From: Lentisphaeria bacterium
GTDB lineage: Bacteria; Verrucomicrobiota; Lentisphaeria; Victivallales; Victivallaceae
Length of the DNA stretch: 64,000 nt
Assembly: GCA_017507125.1 (NCBI GenBank)
Contig: JAFWBQ010000055.1
Location: 1-64,000 of the forward strand
Direction of reading: 5' to 3'
Part shown: positions 12,090-58,424 of the stretch, piece after piece
How the letters are laid out: each line of letters opens with the position of its first letter
Numbering within the stretch: the first letter of the stretch is position 1
Notes under the pieces: generated by a model
What the model saw: the letters and a program-made list of their open reading frames with translations, nothing else
Databases searched by the model: none
What the model was told of the DNA's origin: nothing
Position numbers and translations under genes: made by a program

Positions 12090-15000
12090 ATGATCAATGC
12101 AATTCTCAAAGCCATCTTCGGCACAAAATCCCAGCGGGATCTCAAAAGGATGCAGCCGCTGGTCAAAAAGATCAATGCCATAGAAGTTGAACTGCAAAAA
12201 CTTTCGGATGAAGAGCTGCAGGCAAAAACCCCCGAATTCAAGAATCGTCTTGCCAACGGGGAAACTCTTGATGATATCATGTGCGAAGCCTTCGCCGTGG
12301 TCAAGAATGCCTGCCGCCGTTTGGTGGGCAGAGAAGTGGAAGTCTGCGGACAGACCCTCAAATGGGATATGATCCCCTTTGATGTGCAGATCATGGGAGG
12401 TATCGCACTTCATCGCGGAAACATCGCCGAAATGGCAACCGGTGAAGGTAAAACCCTCGTCGCAACCATGCCCCTCTACCTCAACGCTCTGACCGGAAAA
12501 AACTGTCAGCTGGTCACTGTCAACGACTATCTGGCGCGCCGTGACTCCACCTGGATGGGCTACATCTATACTTTCCTCGGTCTCACCGTCGGCTGCCTGC
12601 AGAATATGCAGCCCCCGGATGAGCGCCGTGCTCAATACGCATGTGATATCACCTACGGCACAAACAGTGAGTTCGGTTTCGACTACCTGCGCGACATGGG
12701 TATGGCGACTGCTGCCGACCAGCTGGTTCAGCGCGATCACTATTATGCCATCGTGGATGAAATCGACAGTATCCTCATTGATGAAGCCCGTACACCGCTG
12801 ATCATTTCCGGCCCGGTCCCCATGGCGACCGATCAGTTTGCGGAACTCCAGCCCAAGGTGGCCTCTCTCTACAAGAAGCAGAACGAACTCTGTTCCCGTC
12901 TTGCCAAAGAGGCGCGGGATGTCATCAACAATGAAAACGCTTCTGATGATGAGCTTGAAGCTGCCCTGCGGAAACTTCTTCAGGTGCGTTTCGGTATGCC
13001 GACCCACAAGCAGCTGCTCCGGCTTCTTGAAGACGGTTCTGTGCTCAAAGAGCTTGACCGTTATGAATCCCAGGTCCGCAGCGACAACAACCGGGGCATG
13101 CTTCAGGAAGTTCAGAGCGAACTTTACTTCACCATTGATGAAAAGACCCACGAAGCCGATCTTACCGCCAAAGGGCGCCAGGCCATCGAGCCGGACGATC
13201 CGGATGCATTTGTGGTTCCGGATCTGCTCCTTGAGATCAGCAAGATCGAAAATGATAGCGCCATGAGCGCCGCTGACAAAGTGGCAAAGAAAGAGGAATT
13301 TCAGGAGTACTTTGCCGATAAGAGCGAGAAACTCCATGATCTTTCCCAGCTGCTCAAGGCGTACTGCCTTTTTGAAAAGGATGTGAACTATGTGGTCCAG
13401 GACCGCAAAGTTATGATCGTTGACGAGCACACGGGGCGTCTCATGCCGGGACGCCGCTTCTCGGATGGACTCCATCAGGCTCTGGAAGCCAAGGAAAATG
13501 TTCCCATTGAACAGGAAACACAGACCATGGCGACCATCACCATCCAGAACTATTTCCGCATGTATACCAAACTTGCCGGTATGACCGGTACTGCGGAAAC
13601 CGAAGCTGCCGAGTTCCACCAGATCTACAAGCTGGATGTCATCACGATCCCCACCAACCGTCCCTGTATCAGAAAAGATGACAACGACTCCATCTTCAAG
13701 ACCCGGCGTGAAAAATTCAACGCCATCATCGACGATGTCATCGAACGTCATGAAAAGGGACAGCCGGTGTTGTTGGGTACCATCTCTGTGGATGATTCTG
13801 AGACTCTTTCCAGAATGCTCACGATCCGCAAGATCCCTCACAATGTTCTCAACGCCAAAAACCACCAGCGCGAAGCTGAGATCGTCGCCAATGCCGGATG
13901 TCCCGGCGCCGTCACCGTTGCCACCAACATGGCGGGTCGCGGTACCGACATCAAACTGGCTCCCGGCGTAGCAGAAATGGGCGGACTCCACGTCATCGGC
14001 AGCTCCCGCCACGACTCCCGGCGCATTGACCGCCAGCTGCGGGGACGCTGTTCCCGTCAGGGCGATCCCGGTTCTTCCAAGTTCTACGTTTCTCTGGAAG
14101 ACAATCTCATGCGTCTTTTCGGTTCGGACCGTATCATCAAGATCTTTGACCGTTTCGGACTCCAGGAAGGTGATGAACTTCAGCACCCCTGGCTCAATAA
14201 ATCCATTGAGACCGCTCAGCGCCGTGTGGAACAGCAGCACTTCGGGATCCGTAAACGCACTCTTGACTTCGACGATGTGATGAATAAGCAGCGCGAGATC
14301 ATCTACGCACTGCGTAAAGATGCACTGCTTTCTGAAACGCCCCATGATGTGCTTTTCGGTATCGTCGAACAGGTGGTCGAAGCCGAAGTGAACAACGTCG
14401 CCGCGCTCCGGCCTGAAGGAGCCAAAGAGGGCAAGTTCGACACTGCCAAGCTGGCGGGTGCATTGAGCATCATCTTCCCCCTTGACATCAAGCCCGAAGA
14501 ACTTACCGAAGGTATCGGCAGCGCCACAGGTCAGCTCAATGATCCTGCGGCACTGACCATGCAGATCGTCAACCGTCTGGAAAGTGCATGGCTCGACAGC
14601 CACGCCTCAGATGCGCCTGAAGATCTGGATTATCTGCGGCGCCAGACGGTTCTTGAAGCCATCGACAAACTCTGGCAGGAGCACCTCTATGCCATGGATA
14701 ATTTGCGTTCCAGCATGTCTCTGCGGGTCTACGCCCAGAAAGATCCTCTGGTGGAATACAAAAACGAAGCCTATAACATCTTCAAGGATCTGATGGATCG
14801 TATTTACCGTCAGGTGGCAGAAAATCTTTTCGTCATGACCCTCAATCAGTATGAGTCTTTTGAAGAGATGTTCAACGCCATGCCCATTGAGATGCAGCAT
14901 CAGCTGATGGAACAGTTTGCCCAGAGTCCTGACGGTCAGTTCGTTATGGCTCCGGAAGGGATGGATATGGAAAATGCTCCGGTCATGATGCCTCAGGAAA

Positions 15001-50726: not shown

Positions 50727-51635
50727 TCAGGCTCTGCCGGAGCGGGCATTCAGACCGTATTTCTGCAAGATGGCGGCGGCAGCGGCGATCTTTTCCTCTG
50801 AGGGGGATTCTGCCTCAGGCATGGTGTCGGAGATCCGGAGCGCCCGATACTTGTTTCTTGCCAGAGCATGATAGGGGAGCAGTTTCACAGATTCAATACA
50901 AAGTCCGCCCAGAAAAGCGCCTGTGGCTTCCATATTTCCGTCGGAGTCATTGCACCCCGGCACAAAGGGAATGCGGATCTCTATTCTTGCTCCGTTGGCT
51001 GAAAGGAACTCCAGATTCGCCTTTATCAATTCATTGGACTGCCCCGTAAGGCGTTTGTGCATCATAGAGTCTGCGTGTTTGAAATCCACCAGAAACATAT
51101 CGGTAACTTCAAGGGCCTCTTCAAGAGTTTTCTGCGGCACAAAAGCACAGGTATCAAGGGCGGTATGGATCTTCTCTTTTTTGAGAGCTTTGAAAAGAGA
51201 GAGTGTAAACTCTTTCTGCATCAGAGGCTCCCCACCTGAAACGGTGACGCCTCCGTTGGAGTTTTCATAAAAATCCCGGTCTTCAAGAGCAAGGGCGAAC
51301 GCCTCTTCAACAGTGACCTCTCTGCCGTAAAGTTTCATGGCGCTCACAGGGCACACTTCTTCGCATTTGCCGCACGCCTGACAGGAGTCCCCGTCAAAAA
51401 GGTGTTGCCCCTCTTCAAAGCTGTGCGCGGCTGCGGGACAGACCGCCCGGCAACTGCCGCAGCTGCGGCACAGATCTTTGTAAAAACCTGTCTGAGGCAG
51501 CGGGGAGGTGCTTTCAGGATTGTGGCACCAGATGCACTTCAAGGGACATCCCTTGGTGAAAAAGGCGGTACGGATCCCGGGGCCGTCGTGGACGGCAAAA
51601 CGTTTGGTATCAAGAAGAATGCCTGTGATCGCCAT
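50727..51635 (-). CDS. glycyl-radical enzyme activase (radical SAM)
   Basis: A 302-residue radical-SAM protein that installs the glycyl radical on its partner. The SAM cluster is TKGCPLKCIWCHN (Cys30, 34, 37 from the chosen start), and an inserted ferredoxin-like part adds two CxxCxxCxxxC clusters (CRSCGSCRAVCP; CQACGKCEEVCP), typical of activases outside the classical PflA. GGEPLMQKEF follows. The stop of the GRE gene (TAATG) overlaps an ATG at 51641. I prefer ATG 51635 because GGAG is then eight bases away. Confidence 0.9.
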   Translation of the reverse strand: MAITGILLDTKRFAVHDGPGIRTAFFTKGCPLKCIWCHNPESTSPLPQTGFYKDLCRSCGSCRAVCPAAAHSFEEGQHLFDGDSCQACGKCEEVCPVSAMKLYGREVTVEEAFALALEDRDFYENSNGGVTVSGGEPLMQKEFTLSLFKALKKEKIHTALDTCAFVPQKTLEEALEVTDMFLVDFKHADSMMHKRLTGQSNELIKANLEFLSANGARIEIRIPFVPGCNDSDGNMEATGAFLGGLCIESVKLLPYHALARNKYRALRISDTMPEAESPSEEKIAAAAAILQKYGLNARSGRA

Positions 51636-51640
51636 GGTCA

Positions 51641-53866
51641 TTACTCCGCAATATTTTCCGCCCGCCGGATGTAGGCGTCCTGCTCGCATTTGGGAAGTTC
51701 CACAAAGCGGACGTTCCATCCGCAGACTCTTATTTGCAGATTGGCATATTTCTCAGGTTCAACTTGAGCTTTTTTCAGCGTTTCAGCGTCAAAGATGTTG
51801 AAGTGTATTGCAACGCCCCCTTTGGCAAAGTAGGTGTAGAGCACTCCCCGCAATGCGGCAAGTCCCTCCTCCCCCTGAACTGTGGCAGGGTGCATCATCA
51901 CATCAAGGGGGAAATCCCCGGGAAGATCAAGGGCGTTCATGGTGCAGACGGATTTGATGAGAGCGGTGACGCCGTTTCTGTCCATGCCCATGGTGGGGGA
52001 AAGGTTTTTGGAAAACTCTTCACCGGCAAGGCGTCCGTCAGGGGTGGCGCCGGTTTTTCCGCCCATGGAAATAAACTGCCGGGCGCAGTGTCCTGAGGCT
52101 GCATAAAATCCCTTTCGGGCATTGGGACGCATATTGATCTTGCGTCCGGCGTAATGGGCAAGTATATGGGCGTAGAAATCCACCTCTTCAATGCCGTTGC
52201 CGAACTTGTCTCTGTCAAGCAGGATCCTGGTGCGCAGCTCTTCGGCGCCTGCCCAGTTGTTTTTCAGGATCTCCCGGAACTCCTGCAAAGTCAACTCTTT
52301 TTTCTCAAAGACGAACTTTTTCACCGCCATCAAAGCATCCACCGCCGTACCGATGCCGCAGAGCAGAATGCTTGAAACGTTGTAAACGTTGCCGTTTGAA
52401 AAGGCATCCCTGCCCGTTACAAGACTGTTCAGAGCGGTCACGGAGTAAAGGAGCGACGGATTCACTTCATGAAGATTGGCTTCATTTCCGTCGGCACACT
52501 TGATGATGACTTCAATGATATCGTCAAGATAACGCAGGAAACTTTTGAAAAAGTCGTCAAAGTTTTTGATCTCATCCAGCTTGAGGGCGCCGCAGTTTTC
52601 AACCGTGTATCCTGTTGCGGGGTCTCTGCCGTCGTTGAAAATCAGTTCAAAGATCTTCATAAAATTGGCATGTCCGGCGCCGGTGCCGTTGGCGATGCCC
52701 CGGGCGGCGGTTTCATAGCACCCTGTGACGTTGCATGTGCGCGCCTCTTCTTCGGAGTAGCCGTAACACATCTTTATTTTTCTGATGTTGTCATCAGAAA
52801 CAAAGACCAGACTGCTGTGTCCGTCACGGATCATGCGGAACGCCGTATCAAGAAGTTTCCGGGGCGTATTCTTTGCAACTTTCAGCTGGATCTTGGGGGT
52901 GGGGATGTGCAGTTCATCAAAGACATCAAGGATCAGATAGGAAACATCGTTGTAAAGAGAAGAGCCGTCTTTCGCCGTTCCTCCCAGATAGAAGGGGTGT
53001 CCCCAGTAGTTGTCAATGGAACCCCACTGCATGAGGAAGCAGGTGAGAAACTCCCGCATATCCTCAATGGTGTAGCGTCCTTCTTTCAGATCCCGTTCAT
53101 AGAAAGGCAGCAGCAGATCATCCAGATTCCCCCCCAGAGAGCGGACCTGAAAGTGGTCAATGTGTTCACAGTAGTAAAACTGCACATAAATAAGCATCAG
53201 CACTTCGTAAAAATCCCGTGGCGGTCCCTGCCGGAGCTGTTCAAGGCAGCGGATCTCCCGTTCTATTCTGGGATTTCCGGCGTGGCGGGCGCGGGCAAAA
53301 TCGATCAGTTTCCCCAAATGGTCAAGGAGGGCGTTGACAGTGATCTTCATTCCCTCAAAGTGGGCGGCAACAGCGGGGGTTAAAGTTCCCTTTTCCTCAT
53401 GGAGTTTACGGTACTTTTCAAGGCGTTCCAGCAATCCGGGATACCCCAGTTCCACCATGGCGTCCCAGTCGGGGACGGAGTGGTCAAAGTCTTTCCAGAT
53501 CATGTGAAGTCCGGCGCTGTTCCGGGGCCAGCACATTTCGGCGCGTTCTTTATTGACGGTGGAGTCGACCTCATAGTTCCAGCGTCCCACCAGGGGGGCG
53601 AGAGGACGTTTCTTTCTGTCATAGCATCCGAAACCGGGGAAATCGTCATGGGGATTGACATCAATGAACATCTGCTGACACACATGTTCAAAACAGCGTG
53701 CCTTGATCACAGGCTTGGGCAGATCCTGAAGGGTGAGAGTGTCGGCAAATTCAAGAATATGTTCAATGATCTCTTCCTGGGAGACTCCCGTCCCCTCTTC
53801 AAAAACAGGTTTACGGAACTTGTTGACCAGATATTCACGGTCACTGTCAAATGATGCGTAAAGCAT
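51641..53866 (-). CDS. glycyl-radical enzyme of unassigned substrate
   Basis: A 741-residue member of the pyruvate-formate-lyase superfamily. The thiyl cysteine is Cys383 in VTGCYETAARG, with the neighbouring Glu385 expected of dehydratase/lyase-type GREs rather than true PFL (Cys-Cys). The glycyl-radical loop is IRVCGWNVRF with Gly716. The start is ATG 53866 behind AAAGGAG, not the upstream ATG at 53896. The tyrosine after the Cys (GCYE) differs from the GCVE of diol, choline and hydroxyproline enzymes that I know. No microcompartment shell gene is near. An AraC regulator is divergent. Confidence 0.88.
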   Translation of the reverse strand: MLYASFDSDREYLVNKFRKPVFEEGTGVSQEEIIEHILEFADTLTLQDLPKPVIKARCFEHVCQQMFIDVNPHDDFPGFGCYDRKKRPLAPLVGRWNYEVDSTVNKERAEMCWPRNSAGLHMIWKDFDHSVPDWDAMVELGYPGLLERLEKYRKLHEEKGTLTPAVAAHFEGMKITVNALLDHLGKLIDFARARHAGNPRIEREIRCLEQLRQGPPRDFYEVLMLIYVQFYYCEHIDHFQVRSLGGNLDDLLLPFYERDLKEGRYTIEDMREFLTCFLMQWGSIDNYWGHPFYLGGTAKDGSSLYNDVSYLILDVFDELHIPTPKIQLKVAKNTPRKLLDTAFRMIRDGHSSLVFVSDDNIRKIKMCYGYSEEEARTCNVTGCYETAARGIANGTGAGHANFMKIFELIFNDGRDPATGYTVENCGALKLDEIKNFDDFFKSFLRYLDDIIEVIIKCADGNEANLHEVNPSLLYSVTALNSLVTGRDAFSNGNVYNVSSILLCGIGTAVDALMAVKKFVFEKKELTLQEFREILKNNWAGAEELRTRILLDRDKFGNGIEEVDFYAHILAHYAGRKINMRPNARKGFYAASGHCARQFISMGGKTGATPDGRLAGEEFSKNLSPTMGMDRNGVTALIKSVCTMNALDLPGDFPLDVMMHPATVQGEEGLAALRGVLYTYFAKGGVAIHFNIFDAETLKKAQVEPEKYANLQIRVCGWNVRFVELPKCEQDAYIRRAENIAE

Positions 53867-53974
53867 AGCTCCACTCCTTTCATGGGTTGTCATCATACTT
53901 ATAATATAATATCAACTTCAGGAATATTGAATGAATAAAAAAGAGCAATATTTATACTTTTGTGACTTTGAAGT

Positions 53975-54024: not shown

Positions 54025-54840
54025 ATGCCTGTCAGAAACAACTCATTTGCCATACAGACGGCGAACCGCCTGAATCTTGAAGTGCAGCATTTTGCCAAAG
54101 GCACCTGGCCCGTGGCAGGCAGAGAGTATCACACCCTGCCTGTCAACCGTTTTTTCATGGTCATCAACAATCCCGGCGGGAAGTTGTGCCGCATTGAGGA
54201 CGCCCGGGACACCTTTGTTCTGAAACCGGGGAATGCCTATTTTGCCCCTCTGCACCACCCCTGTAAATTTCTTCTTGACAGGGAACTGGAATTTATCTCC
54301 ATCCACTTCACCCTTGAACTTTATGAGGGAGTCGACATCTTTTCCGGCTTCGGACATCTCTGTGAAATTGCCGACGCCTCACTTCTCCGCCGGGCGCAGG
54401 AGGCCTTTGAATGCCCCTCGGAGTTTGCCTCTGCGCTTCAGCTGCAGAGTCTTATTACGGAGTTTGCGGCGCGTCTGGTCAACATGCCCTTTACTGAATT
54501 GGAACATGTCACCCGTTTCGCACCCTATAAAAAGGAGCTTGATTACCTGCAGAAAGTCCCCCCTGCCCGGGTGACAGTGGAGGAACTTGCGGCGCTCCAC
54601 GGTGTTTCCAGAGAGAATTTTTCCCGGAGTTTCACCCGCCAGACGGGGATCACTCCCAAAAACTTTCTGACCCGCATGATCCTCAGCCGGATATGCCGTC
54701 AGCTGACCACAGAAAAAAAGAATATCCGTGAAATCGCCTTTGCGGCAGGATTCAACAACGAATTTTACTTTTCCAAGTTCTTCCGCAAGCACATGGGGTG
54801 TTCCCCCAAAGAGTACCGCCGGCGCACCCGGCTGAAATAA
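54025..54840 (+). CDS. AraC-family transcriptional regulator
   Basis: A 271-residue regulator: an N-terminal cupin-like ligand domain (LKPGNAYFAPLHHPCKFLLD) and a C-terminal double helix-turn-helix. The first HTH is VEELAALHGVSRENFSRSFT. The second is NIREIAFAAGFNNEFYFSKF followed by FRKHMGCSPKEYRR. It is divergent from the glycyl-radical enzyme gene with about 160 bases between start codons. It probably activates the GRE-activase operon in response to a sugar or related ligand. Confidence 0.9.
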   Translation: MPVRNNSFAIQTANRLNLEVQHFAKGTWPVAGREYHTLPVNRFFMVINNPGGKLCRIEDARDTFVLKPGNAYFAPLHHPCKFLLDRELEFISIHFTLELYEGVDIFSGFGHLCEIADASLLRRAQEAFECPSEFASALQLQSLITEFAARLVNMPFTELEHVTRFAPYKKELDYLQKVPPARVTVEELAALHGVSRENFSRSFTRQTGITPKNFLTRMILSRICRQLTTEKKNIREIAFAAGFNNEFYFSKFFRKHMGCSPKEYRRRTRLK

Positions 54841-54869: not shown

Positions 54870-54897
54870 TTGACGGATCTCAAAAAGGTGTTATATT
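54870..54897 (+). promoter_or_regulatory. promoter of the isoleucine operon leader
   Basis: TTGACG (54870-54875), 16 bases, TATATT (54892-54897), giving a start near 54904 and a leader of about 400 bases before ilvB. Confidence 0.65.
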
Positions 54898-54929: not shown

Positions 54930-55010
54930 ATGAATTTTCTTTTCAACAGCATTATTATGATCGCCATCGCCGCAATTATTATTTGCGACGGTGTCCTTTG
55001 CTGTTGTTGA
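54930..55010 (+). CDS. leader peptide 1 of the isoleucine operon
   Basis: A 26-codon ORF starting at ATG 54930 with AAAAGG 10 bases upstream. Seven of its codons are Ile, grouped as SIIMIAIAAIII (codons 7-18: Ile at 8, 9, 11, 13, 16, 17, 18); the end is DGVLCCC. It is followed 20 bases after its stop by an intrinsic terminator. Ile clustering at this density is what is expected of a control-codon peptide for ribosome-mediated attenuation. The ORF is too short and unusual to be an ordinary protein. Confidence 0.75.
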   Translation: MNFLFNSIIMIAIAAIIICDGVLCCC

Positions 55011-55029
55011 GAATCAGAAAAAAATCAGG

Positions 55030-55067
55030 AACTCTCTGCGGCGGTAAAGCGGCAGAGAGTTTTTTTT
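55030..55067 (+). terminator. attenuator terminator 1 of the isoleucine operon
   Basis: A perfect 10-bp stem (AACTCTCTGC 55030-55039 with 55052-55061) extended by an inner GC pair, followed by seven T. The 5' arm plus loop (55037-55043) is complementary over 7 bases to 54968-54974 inside leader ORF 1, and another partial match (54990-54997 with 55027-55033) exists; either could act as antiterminator. Confidence 0.82.
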
Positions 55068-55072
55068 ATGCA

Positions 55073-55219
55073 ATGAAAACCTCAAAACACAATTATCACT
55101 TCTCTTTCTCCCCGGCTCCGGAAGCTGCCGGGAGCTTTGCTGTCTCCGCTTTTTTCCGTTTTATCAACATTATTTCCATTATTTTTTGCATTATCATTAC
55201 CACTCCCGGCACAAGTTGA
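55073..55219 (+). CDS. leader peptide 2 of the isoleucine operon
   Basis: A 48-codon ORF from ATG 55073 to TGA 55219. The N-terminal part is ordinary, but codons 29-42 read FINIISIIFCIIIT: eight Ile codons (three at 55190-55198) directly before TTPGTS and the stop. The final Pro-Gly region overlaps the 5' arm of the antiterminator. The ribosome binding site is unclear; GAGAG in the 3' arm of terminator 1 lies 13 bases upstream and would be hidden when that terminator forms. The shape resembles the IlvL and ThrL peptides of enteric bacteria. Confidence 0.75.
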   Translation: MKTSKHNYHFSFSPAPEAAGSFAVSAFFRFINIISIIFCIIITTPGTS

Positions 55220-55251
55220 AAAATAAAACCAGAAAATTCAAGTTCTGCCGG
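55206..55251 (+). promoter_or_regulatory. antiterminator stem of attenuator 2
   Basis: CCGGCACAAGTTGAA at 55206-55220 can pair with TTCAAGTTCTGCCGG at 55237-55251 in 13 of 15 positions, across a 16-base loop. Its 3' arm shares CCGG (55248-55251) with the 5' arm of terminator 2, so the two folds exclude each other. Its 5' arm overlaps the last codons of leader ORF 2, just after the Ile run, as in classic attenuation. Confidence 0.8.
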
Positions 55252-55277
55252 AAGAAAAAATCTTCCGGTTTTTTTTT
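55248..55277 (+). terminator. attenuator terminator 2 of the isoleucine operon
   Basis: CCGGAAGA (55248-55255), loop AAAAA, TCTTCCGG (55261-55268), followed by nine T; it ends 31 bases before ilvB. Confidence 0.9.
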
Positions 55278-55308: not shown

Positions 55309-56970
55309 ATGGTACGAACAGGAGCAAACATCGTTATCGAATCTCTCTGCCGCAACGGCACAGAAACACTTTTCGGCTACCCCGGCGGCGCCGTGCTGCC
55401 CATCTATGAAGAACTGTACCGCAACAGTTACCGCCTCAGGCACATTCTCTGCGCCCACGAACAAAACGCCGTCCACGCCGCCGATGGTTATGCCCGGACC
55501 ACGGGCCGTCCGGGAGTCGTCATCGCCACCAGCGGCCCCGGGGCCGCCAATCTGGTCACAGGTATTGCCACAGCCGGCCTTGACAGTGTGCCCCTTGTGG
55601 TCATTACAGGCAACGTAAGCGTTCCACTCCTCGGCAAAGACAGTTTTCAGGAGCTTGACATCACCTCTGTCACCCGGGGGATCACCAAACACAACTTTGC
55701 GGTAAACTCCCCCTGTGAACTTTCCCGGGTCATAGATGCCGCGTTTCACATCGCCCTTGACGGCCGTCCGGGACCGGTGCTGATAGACATTCCCAAAAAC
55801 GTTCAAAATGAGAGCTGTCAGGAAGAAGATGAAAGTTCGCCTCTTTACTTCACCCGTAAGAGACCTCTCCCTGCTCTTGATGCACTCATCCGGATGCTCT
55901 GCGAAAGCAGCCGTCCTCTGATCTATAGCGGAGGCGGCATCATTTCAGGTCGGGCATGGGGGGAATTGGAAGAACTTGCCAACAGAATTGACGCTCCGGT
56001 CGTTTTCAGCATGATGGGGCTTACTGCCATGAGAAGCAGTCATCCGCGGAACGGCGGCATGTGCGGCATGCACGGAACCGCTCTATCAGCTGAATTGCTG
56101 AAAAAATGCGACCTTATCCTTGCTCTGGGAGTCCGTTTTTCCGACCGTGCGTCAGGGAACTGCGAAAAATTCAGGGAAGGGAAAAAAATCATCCATATTG
56201 ACATCGATCCCAGTGAAATCAATAAAAATGTTTCAGCTGATATAGGGATCACAGGCAGCCTGAAAAGTGTTTTGACAGAACTTCTGAAAACTCTTCCCCG
56301 GCAGTCCCGTCCTGAGTGGCAGCAGTTCCATAAGAGTATCAAGCTGAAAAATGTCCCGGCTGAAATAAAGACTCTTGTCCCGGAAAACCTCTTCCCCGCA
56401 GTGGCAAAGTATTGCGATGAAGATTGTGTCATTGTCACAGATGTGGGGCAGCACCAAATCTGGACCATGCACTATTATCCATTCAAAACGCCCGGCTCTC
56501 TTCTGACTTCAGGAGGACTTGGCACGATGGGATATGGTCTCGGTGCCGCCATAGGCAGTTCAGTTGCCCGGGGCGGAAAAAGAACACTTCTTTTTACCGG
56601 AGACGGCAGTTTCGGCATGAGTTTGCAGGAACTTGCCACTGCGGTCTCACAAAAGCTGCCGCTTCTCATCATTATCTGCAACAACGGTGTTCTGGGAATG
56701 GTGCGCCAGTGGCAGACCATGTTTTACGATCAGCACTACTCCCACACCACACTGAACCGTCAGACCGATTTTCCGGCACTGGCGCGGGCTTTCGGAGCAG
56801 AGGGGAAAAAAATCACAACCCTTGAAGAGCTTGATTCTGCTCTTCAAGATCTTGCTCCTGACCGTCCGACGGTACTTGACTGCCGCCTTGACAAAGATGA
56901 ATGGGCACTGCCCATAATTCCGCCGGGAGGCAGCATTGAAGAAATGATAACTGAAAAAAAAGGAATTTGA
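55309..56970 (+). CDS. ilvB: acetolactate synthase (acetohydroxyacid synthase) large subunit
   Basis: A 553-residue ThDP enzyme making acetolactate and acetohydroxybutyrate, the first shared step of branched-chain synthesis. Marks: the catalytic Glu region LFGYPGGAVLPIYEEL to CAHEQNAVHAADG, the FAD-binding-type SGGLGTMGYGLGAAIG, and the ThDP motif LFTGDGSFGMSLQELA ending in NN. The start is ATG 55309 with AAGGA at 55296. It heads an operon with a small regulatory subunit and ilvA, and its expression would depend on the two upstream attenuators. Confidence 0.95.
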   Translation: MVRTGANIVIESLCRNGTETLFGYPGGAVLPIYEELYRNSYRLRHILCAHEQNAVHAADGYARTTGRPGVVIATSGPGAANLVTGIATAGLDSVPLVVITGNVSVPLLGKDSFQELDITSVTRGITKHNFAVNSPCELSRVIDAAFHIALDGRPGPVLIDIPKNVQNESCQEEDESSPLYFTRKRPLPALDALIRMLCESSRPLIYSGGGIISGRAWGELEELANRIDAPVVFSMMGLTAMRSSHPRNGGMCGMHGTALSAELLKKCDLILALGVRFSDRASGNCEKFREGKKIIHIDIDPSEINKNVSADIGITGSLKSVLTELLKTLPRQSRPEWQQFHKSIKLKNVPAEIKTLVPENLFPAVAKYCDEDCVIVTDVGQHQIWTMHYYPFKTPGSLLTSGGLGTMGYGLGAAIGSSVARGGKRTLLFTGDGSFGMSLQELATAVSQKLPLLIIICNNGVLGMVRQWQTMFYDQHYSHTTLNRQTDFPALARAFGAEGKKITTLEELDSALQDLAPDRPTVLDCRLDKDEWALPIIPPGGSIEEMITEKKGI

Positions 56971-56973
56971 ACC

Positions 56974-57216
56974 ATGGAAAAATTCACAGTTGAATTGACA
57001 GCCGCCAACAGCTGCGGTGTTCTCCACCACATTTCAGGAGTCTATGCAAAGTGCCGGATAAATATAGACGCTCTGACATTTGCTCCGGAAGCAGAAAGTG
57101 AACTTGCTGTCATGCAGGTCACTTCAAAAGGCAATGAAAGTGTACGCACCCATCTGCTTAAGCTGCTTTTAAAACTCTATGATGTTAAAAGTGTCACATT
57201 GACACAGCCAAAATAA
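56974..57216 (+). CDS. ilvN: ACT-domain small subunit of acetolactate synthase
   Basis: An 80-residue ACT protein (MEKFTVELTAANSCGVLHHI, then SGVYAKCRINIDALTF). It begins three bases after ilvB. The length is that of the single-ACT IlvM/short IlvN form rather than the ~160-residue two-domain IlvH, so valine feedback may be weak or absent. The family role is to bind the large subunit and set activity and feedback. It is followed 14 bases later by ilvA. Confidence 0.85.
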   Translation: MEKFTVELTAANSCGVLHHISGVYAKCRINIDALTFAPEAESELAVMQVTSKGNESVRTHLLKLLLKLYDVKSVTLTQPK

Positions 57217-57230
57217 AAAGGGAAAATATT

Positions 57231-58424
57231 ATGCTGACTCTTGATAAAGTTTACCGTGCCGCCCATCTGCTTTCAAAAGTTGCAAGAAAAACCGACATGA
57301 TCGGTGCCGGGAACTTGCGTTCCGACTGTGATTTGAGGTTGAAAGCAGAAAATCTTCAGCTGACAGGATCTTTCAAACTCCGCGGAGCCTTTTTCAAAAT
57401 CGCTTCACTTCCAGAAGAGACAAAGGAGCGGGAAATCGTTGCATGTTCTGCGGGAAACCACTCTCAGGGCGTCGCCTATGCGGCAGCAAAACTGAAACGC
57501 AAAGCCGTGATCTTCATGCCCGGCACAGCCCCTATTTCCAAGGTTGAAGCCACCCGCAAACTCGGAGCTGAGATCCATCTGATCGACGGTGTCTACGACG
57601 ACGCCTCCAATGCCGCCGAAGAGTACTGCCGCCGAACTCAGGGAATCTTCGTTCATCCCTTTGATGATGAGGATGTCATAGCAGGCCAGGGAACCATCGC
57701 GCTGGAAATTCTTGAACAGTTTCCGGAAGTCGACACCCTGTTTCTCCCCGTGGGAGGCGGCGGTCTGCTGGCAGGGACGGCATTCACCATGAAACAGTTG
57801 AAACCTGAATGTAAAGTTTACGGAGTTCAGGCAGAAGGAGCCCCCGGCATGCATAAAGCCTTTATAAACAAATCATCTGTCACCCTTGAACGCGTCTCCA
57901 CTTTTGCTGACGGAATCGCTGTCAAGCATCCCGGGGAATTGACCCGGCAGCTCTGCTGTCAGTATGCAGACGGGATCCTGACCGTTTCAGATGATGAGAT
58001 CGCCTCAGCCATCCTTGCTTTAATGGAAAAGCAGAAGCTGGTCGCCGAAGGAGCCGGAGCTGCCGGAACCGGTGCCATTCTGGCTGACAAACTTCCCCTT
58101 GCCGGAAGACACGTCTGCGCCGTGATCTCAGGCGGTAATATTGATGTGAACATCCTTTCGCGGGTCATCAATCGGGGACTCCTCTCAAGCGGCAGGAGAG
58201 CAGAACTGAAAATCGCCATGCTGGACAAACCGGGACAACTCCATGAAGTTTCAGGCATTATCGCCCGCTGCGGCGCCAATGTCATCCAGGTGCGCCATGA
58301 TCCGGGGGGTGAACACGCTGACATCATCGGATGCTTTCTTCATGTCAAGATGGAAACCCGTTCTGCGGAACAATTGGAAGAGATAAAATCCAAATTGACC
58401 CGTGCCGGATACAAACTTGTGTGA
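57231..58424 (+). CDS. ilvA: threonine dehydratase
   Basis: A 397-residue PLP enzyme that converts threonine to 2-oxobutanoate, the committed step to isoleucine. The PLP lysine is Lys49 in LTGSFKLRGAF. The glycine-rich phosphate loop is VGGGGLLAG. A C-terminal ACT domain (LKIAMLDKPGQLHEVSGIIA) follows; this short single-ACT layout is shared by many TdcB/IlvA proteins. Its place behind ilvB and ilvN and under an Ile-rich leader argues for the biosynthetic role. Confidence 0.92.
   Translation: MLTLDKVYRAAHLLSKVARKTDMIGAGNLRSDCDLRLKAENLQLTGSFKLRGAFFKIASLPEETKEREIVACSAGNHSQGVAYAAAKLKRKAVIFMPGTAPISKVEATRKLGAEIHLIDGVYDDASNAAEEYCRRTQGIFVHPFDDEDVIAGQGTIALEILEQFPEVDTLFLPVGGGGLLAGTAFTMKQLKPECKVYGVQAEGAPGMHKAFINKSSVTLERVSTFADGIAVKHPGELTRQLCCQYADGILTVSDDEIASAILALMEKQKLVAEGAGAAGTGAILADKLPLAGRHVCAVISGGNIDVNILSRVINRGLLSSGRRAELKIAMLDKPGQLHEVSGIIARCGANVIQVRHDPGGEHADIIGCFLHVKMETRSAEQLEEIKSKLTRAGYKLV

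Follow-up and report, generated by a model that had tools for sequence, protein, structure and literature searches.

Upstream of an ilvB gene, in an isoleucine/valine biosynthesis operon of an uncultured Lentisphaeria bacterium of the gut, lie two short isoleucine-rich open reading frames in series, each followed by a predicted intrinsic terminator, which raises the question of whether translation of these frames could control transcription of the genes downstream. We refer to the whole 64,000-nucleotide stretch of DNA that was analysed as the window. Its source is a draft genome of 137 contigs (G000); among the near relatives, those with names are metagenome-assembled genomes of Lentisphaeria/Lentisphaerae, two of which came from the colon of sheep and roe deer. 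A sequence-only reading of the window had proposed that the second unit, attenuator 2, has the geometry of classic attenuation. The features of the locus are as follows.

54870..54897, forward strand: sigma-70-like promoter TTGACG-16-TATATT, predicted for the whole leader (consensus scan 10/12, extended -10 TG)
54930..55010, forward strand: leader ORF 1, MNFLFNSIIMIAIAAIIICDGVLCCC, 7 Ile among 26 codons
54996..55012, forward strand: antiterminator 1 5' arm, the last codons and stop of leader 1; duplex with 55033-55049
55033..55049, forward strand: antiterminator 1 3' arm, overlapping the 5' arm and loop of terminator 1
55029..55062, forward strand: intrinsic terminator 1, -22.2 kcal/mol, running into a U8 tract
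55073..55219, forward strand: leader ORF 2, MKTSKHNYHFSFSPAPEAAGSFAVSAFFRFINIISIIFCIIITTPGTS, 48 codons, 8 Ile codons at 55163-55198
55126..55134, forward strand: segment 1 (protector), TGCCGGGAG, pairing with 55203-55211 in the nascent RNA
55203..55211, forward strand: partner of segment 1, overlapping the antiterminator 2 5' arm
55206..55220, forward strand: segment 2, the antiterminator 2 5' arm (sequence, covariation, shuffles)
55237..55251, forward strand: segment 3, the antiterminator 2 3' arm, sharing 55247-55251 with the terminator
55247..55269, forward strand: segments 3:4, intrinsic terminator 2, -13.9 kcal/mol, U-tract to 55277
55309..56970, forward strand: ilvB, acetohydroxyacid synthase (AHAS) large subunit (Pfam TPP_enzyme_N/M/C)
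56974..57216, forward strand: ilvN-like ACT protein, AHAS small subunit (Pfam ACT_AHAS_ss)
57231..58424, forward strand: ilvA-like putative threonine deaminase (PALP + ACT; Pfam PALP, E 1.9e-78)

The last of these genes takes its name from its domains and its place in the operon, and given the ilvB, ilvN-like and ilvA-like genes downstream, isoleucine is the signal to be expected. Relatives have TTGACA/TATATT-like elements at the place corresponding to the promoter. Elsewhere in the window, 50727-53896 encodes a glycyl radical enzyme of the pyruvate formate-lyase-like type together with a radical-SAM activase-like protein, divergent beside an AraC-type regulator (54025-54840). Leader ORF 1 has an in-frame homologue in 14 further genomes, and leader ORF 2 an alignable ORF in 15. 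The 8 Ile codons of leader 2 fall within its last 18 codons, and, with an Ile frequency of 6.5% assumed, the enrichment over its last 20 (8/20) has a binomial P of about 2e-5. In L015, the usual TAG stop of leader 2 reads CAG, and the frame is 4 codons longer (QKIK).

How widely is this arrangement kept? An ilvB of the window's subtype (E at most 1e-140) was found in 19 of the 137 genomes of the order, two of which end at a contig edge before the leader. Attenuator 2 precedes ilvB in 16 of the 17 genomes with an intact leader region, and 15 of these 16 carry both attenuators, each a complete unit of leader ORF, antiterminator and terminator. G120 (L101) has neither attenuator before ilvB, and G011 (L007), where attenuator 1 is absent, is a natural single-attenuator variant. 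Between terminator 2 and ilvB, L007 has about 265 nt of other sequence and L009 (G002) about 260 nt of extra sequence. When a covariance model of the element was run against 198 genomes of the class, strong matches stood before ilvB only, with a single match in the window's own genome; a general repeat or genome-wide element was rejected on these grounds. Of the weaker model matches, L122-L125 were inspected by eye and had neither a convincing leader nor a BCAA gene that could be recognised, and no Ile leader was found upstream of the genome's other two ilvB-like genes (L002, L003). A second ilvB copy in G127 (L109; contig C170, about 13650-13734, minus strand), apparently frameshifted with a 197-aa frame, carries a leader 1 and an attenuator 2 match of its own and lies about 8 kb away from the intact ilvB on the same contig. 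Two species (L033 versus L012/L034) are identical from the 3' half of leader 2 to the end of terminator 2 and differ in leader 1 and in the start of leader 2, which suggests recombination within the leader. Outside the order, the closest IlvB found (57% identity) belongs to a Treponema sp. (L036), where the gene is preceded by one short leader-like ORF (MRFAVIGIVAVLSIILRETAILR) and one very strong terminator (-32 kcal/mol).

At attenuator 2, the proposal was that 13 of the 15 positions of 55206-55220 pair with 55237-55251, and direct reading of the sequence confirmed this: the 5' arm is CCGGCACAAGTTGAA, the reverse complement of the 3' arm is CCGGCAGAACTTGAA, and the mismatches are at positions 7 and 10. 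The proposed overlap of the 3' arm with the 5' arm of terminator 2 is likewise present, the common stretch being 55247-55251 (GCCGG). The antiterminator hairpin is the minimum free energy structure of 55206-55251 (-13.8 kcal/mol, RNAfold), equal in the window to terminator 2 at -13.9 kcal/mol; the alternative stem is thus not much weaker than the terminator, an outcome on which the original proposal had depended. A duplex of such stability with 55237-55255 appeared in 1-2 of 5000 dinucleotide-preserving shuffles of the upstream side, and chance complementarity of the arms was therefore rejected. The 5' arm had also been placed inside the last codons of leader 2, directly after the Ile run. The first part stands, but the second does not, since 8 nt separate the end of the last Ile codon (55196-55198) from the arm, and the codons that follow this Ile are Thr-Thr-Pro-Gly-Thr-Ser-stop. 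Counted from where the last control codon begins, the 5' arm lies 10 nt downstream, and the alignment has no gap in this interval. The terminator, with its U-tract, lies between leader 2 and ilvB in the window and is found in all relatives.

If the antiterminator is a functional structure, it should be maintained by paired changes in relatives, as the sequence-only reading had stipulated. RNAalifold run on the attenuator 2 alignment showed the terminator and not the antiterminator, as expected wherever the terminator is the stronger fold, and for this reason we specified the antiterminator in advance as the helix to be tested, using a plain MAFFT alignment of 15 distinct tails. Its helix is paired in 98.5% of cells, and compensatory double changes occur at 4 of 9 pairs, a level reached by none of 500 shuffles; these double changes come from three sequences (the window, L009 and L012) and so represent few independent events. 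Sliding the partner by 1-3 columns lowers the pairing to 18-44%. Two adjacent pairs that are GG/CC in relatives have become AA/UU in the window, and since the window's terminator does not use these bases, the change supports the antiterminator alone.

The ribosome would decide between the two folds, and we computed them on the RNA downstream of the ribosome only, with its 3' edge varied over 7 nt past the A-site codon. In equilibrium folds of the window, antiterminator 2 has a probability of 0.95-0.99 as long as the A site holds an Ile codon no further along than about 55190 (0.64 with the A site at 55190 under the largest footprint). This probability falls at 55193-55196 in a footprint-dependent manner; from Thr 55199 onwards, the stop codon included, it is about 0 and that of terminator 2 about 1. 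Folding with blocked ribosome positions, the check suggested at the outset, therefore gives a sharp switch where the Ile run ends. A ribosome at the leader 2 stop codon masks the 5' arm, just as anticipated; the companion claim, that a ribosome stalled on Ile codons leaves the arm free, holds for the upstream codons, but the last Ile codon in the A site already masks it in part. Together, the masked folds and the covariation describe an antiterminator that is mutually exclusive with the terminator and masked with the ribosome at the stop codon, not at the control codons. Balanced stems in the window, covariation and the switch with ribosome position all support the reading of attenuator 2 as a classic attenuator.

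The relatives differ in their energetics: terminator 2 measures -22 to -29 kcal/mol, versus -12 to -16 kcal/mol for the antiterminator, and prevails at every ribosome position in equilibrium folds. Such dominance, and the good quality of both hairpins as intrinsic terminators, would fit a constitutive terminator region that only cuts read-through from upstream, with the Ile-rich ORFs and alternative pairing being incidental. We consider this very improbable, because the covariation of the antiterminator is independent of the terminator, two in-frame Ile-rich ORFs are kept in 15 genomes, and the elements are flanked by the promoter and by ilvB, all on one strand. Known attenuators, moreover, give like results in the same calculation, with a terminator probability of 1.00 at every ribosome position for E. 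coli thrL and leuL, and of 0.77-0.91 for ivbL. Such attenuators are held to work since the antiterminator forms first. In the mutationally tested Rli60 attenuator of Listeria, the antiterminator has -10.3 and the terminator -17.1 kcal/mol (PMC5864092). Because thrL, leuL and Rli60 show the same imbalance, the stronger terminator in relatives is no counter-evidence to ribosome-mediated attenuation; since it always wins at equilibrium, the antiterminator there must act kinetically. Relatives may follow a kinetic design with a very strong terminator, and attenuator 2 of the window, its stems balanced enough to switch even at equilibrium, a near-equilibrium design.

RNA folded without a ribosome adds a further element. 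In nascent RNA of the window ending at 55215-55220, 55126-55134 pairs with 55203-55211 at a probability of 0.94-0.97, and this predicted protector pairing would make the classical 1:2 / 2:3 / 3:4 set complete. The antiterminator 5' arm of relatives is also paired upstream (probability 0.23-0.82), in several by a similar protector in other letters, CCGTTGCCG with CGGCACGG. In the window, antiterminator 2 displaces the protector before the terminator is complete (probability 0.99 in RNA ending at 55252); by 55270 the protector is back at 0.56 with the terminator at 0.98, and at 55277 an alternative hairpin using the U-tract clouds the fold. Full-length ribosome-free RNA gives antiterminator 2 a probability of 0.42. 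Since the fold is not clear-cut, the untranslated default state of the window's attenuator 2 may be leaky, as modelled.

Protector structures that exist without a ribosome, and the fact that riboswitches and protein-controlled attenuators also use competing antiterminator and terminator folds as output, raise the alternative that a trans-acting factor or ligand (an RNA-binding protein or riboswitch) controls attenuation, with the ORFs as by-products. This too is very improbable in our assessment: at gathering level, neither a riboswitch nor a T-box of Rfam was found in the leader, no conserved aptamer-like core was seen outside the stems, and the conserved upstream part is instead an ORF with runs of product-cognate codons at a fixed distance from the antiterminator. 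Attenuator 1 matches Thr_leader (RF00506; 27.6 bits, E 0.0037, gathering score 55) and His_leader (RF00514; 27.4 bits, E 0.018, gathering score 49) weakly, which reflects general attenuator shape, and attenuator 2 matches neither. Membership of a known Rfam family was rejected, there being no leader match at gathering level and the best weak matches lying far below.

Does attenuator 1 operate by ribosome position as well? Its antiterminator duplex, 54996-55012 with 55033-55049, has -20.7 versus -22.2 kcal/mol for terminator 1, and duplexes as stable occurred in 5 to 27 per 3000 shuffles, depending on the stretch shuffled. Across 15 sequences the helix (GGCUGGUU..UGUUGAG / CUCUC..GAUCAGCC) is paired in 92.7% of cells, a level reached by 5 of 500 shuffles; the changes are mostly one-sided, with one double change counted, and the window pairs in a register shifted 3 nt from that of relatives. 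This helix accounts for the conserved loop of terminator 1, and perhaps for the ending of leader 1 in Cys codons (TGT TGT TGA). Masked folding in the window gave no equilibrium switch, terminator 1 winning at all ribosome positions; among relatives, such a switch is seen in L011 and, weakly, in L033. Support for attenuator 1 is therefore good, but weaker than for attenuator 2.

The two leaders could sense different signals. Leader 2 of relatives has a common Ile/Val-rich ending (for example VVVSVAAVIIIAIIISVIIITPPGTV) with Val runs (VVVSVAAV), leader 1 is mostly Ile, and leader 1 ends GCGTAGCCC in many species. Leader 1 might then respond to Ile (possibly with Cys) and leader 2 to Ile and Val, integrating two signals as mgtCBR does, which would be a variant of tandem attenuation and not an alternative to it. 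We regard this variant as possible but rather unlikely. The Cys codons TGT-TGT-TGA coincide with the antiterminator 1 5' arm and may be kept for pairing, and the window's leader 2, whose end FAVSAFFRFINIISIIFCIIITTPGTS aligns with the relatives' ending, has lost nearly all of its Val codons; in the window both leaders would then sense Ile. Within the Ile codons of leader 2, before the antiterminator 5' arm, L004-L007, L011-L017 and L033 have a small hairpin (GCGTAATTATTATTACGC), which L008 (GGCGTCATTATGATGGCGCC) retains with the letters of both sides altered; it is missing from the window, L009 and L010. This hairpin may be a transcription pause hairpin.

We conclude that tandem ribosome-mediated transcription attenuators very probably set the expression of ilvB-ilvN-ilvA according to the supply of charged isoleucine tRNA. 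With ample isoleucine, the ribosome would pass the Ile codons of leader 2 to the stop codon and cover 55206-55220, and the terminator at 55247-55269 would form. When isoleucine is short, the ribosome would stall on Ile codons at 55163-55195 and leave 55206-55220 free to capture 55237-55251 during transcription, so that no terminator forms and RNA polymerase enters ilvB. Without a ribosome, 55126-55134 would first hold 55203-55211 (the 1:2 protector). Attenuator 1 would act likewise just upstream, in which case the transcript must pass two Ile-dependent gates. A point against this model is that, for ribosome binding at leader 2, the window offers only a poor Shine-Dalgarno-like sequence, GAGAG, at a distance of 13 nt from the ATG; as this lies within the 3' arm of terminator 1, leader 2 would be translated only once gate 1 is open. 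Computation shows the pairings, how they are conserved and covary, and how the equilibrium folds of attenuator 2 change with the place of the ribosome; we infer that both leaders are translated, that transcription terminates at both sites, that the response is to isoleucine and that the gates multiply. To the further proposal, that serial attenuators for the operon's own product evolved in gut Lentisphaeria as a steeper (multiplicative) switch, with gates shifting between kinetic and near-equilibrium design and between Ile plus Val and Ile only, we give roughly even weight.

The closest classical counterparts are the E. coli leaders ivbL, ilvL, leuL and thrL, which likewise place a BCAA- or product-rich leader ORF directly before a biosynthetic operon and an antiterminator in competition with an intrinsic terminator; in ivbL, thrL and leuL the terminator dominates at equilibrium, as in the relatives here. 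They differ in having one attenuator, not two, and in belonging to another phylum; ivbL is Val-rich, whereas the leaders here carry Ile codons, and we claim no homology of leader or terminator sequence. Tandem T-boxes and tandem riboswitches also place sensing terminators in series before one operon, but these sense tRNA or ligand directly, whereas at our locus sensing would fall to a translating ribosome. Rli60 of Listeria monocytogenes (ilv-leu) resembles a single gate of our locus, with a BCAA leader peptide, segments 1-4 and control of ilvD shown by mutants, and differs in its single attenuator, 13-aa leader, additional CodY control and origin in Firmicutes (PMC5864092). The Salmonella mgtCBR leader (mgtM, mgtP) has two leader ORFs in one 5' leader, with mgtP a codon-stall attenuator, but responds to two signals (ATP and proline) and serves a Mg transporter/virulence operon (PMC3641672); at our locus, by contrast, the control codons of both leaders correspond to the product of the operon itself. 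The mgtCBR authors called their tandem "singular" and noted that nutrient biosynthesis genes are normally under a single attenuator (PMC3641672).

In the open-access literature, where older work may be missed and absence is weak evidence, we found no leader-peptide attenuation in Lentisphaerae or Verrucomicrobia, no tandem leader-ORF attenuators other than those of Salmonella mgtCBR, and no amino acid operon preceded by two attenuators for one signal. Reports of ribosome-mediated attenuation come mainly from Proteobacteria, Actinobacteria and some Firmicutes (PMC2965389, PMC5864092), and the theory of attenuator sensitivity covers a single attenuator (PMC1183508). A conserved same-amino-acid pair is a natural test of how serial attenuators shape sensitivity, with about fifteen natural variants available and one species that has attenuator 2 only. 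For annotation, the conservation adds two unannotated leader genes and two terminators. Compared with the systems that our search found, each gate is known in kind, and the tandem arrangement for the same signal and the phylum are new.
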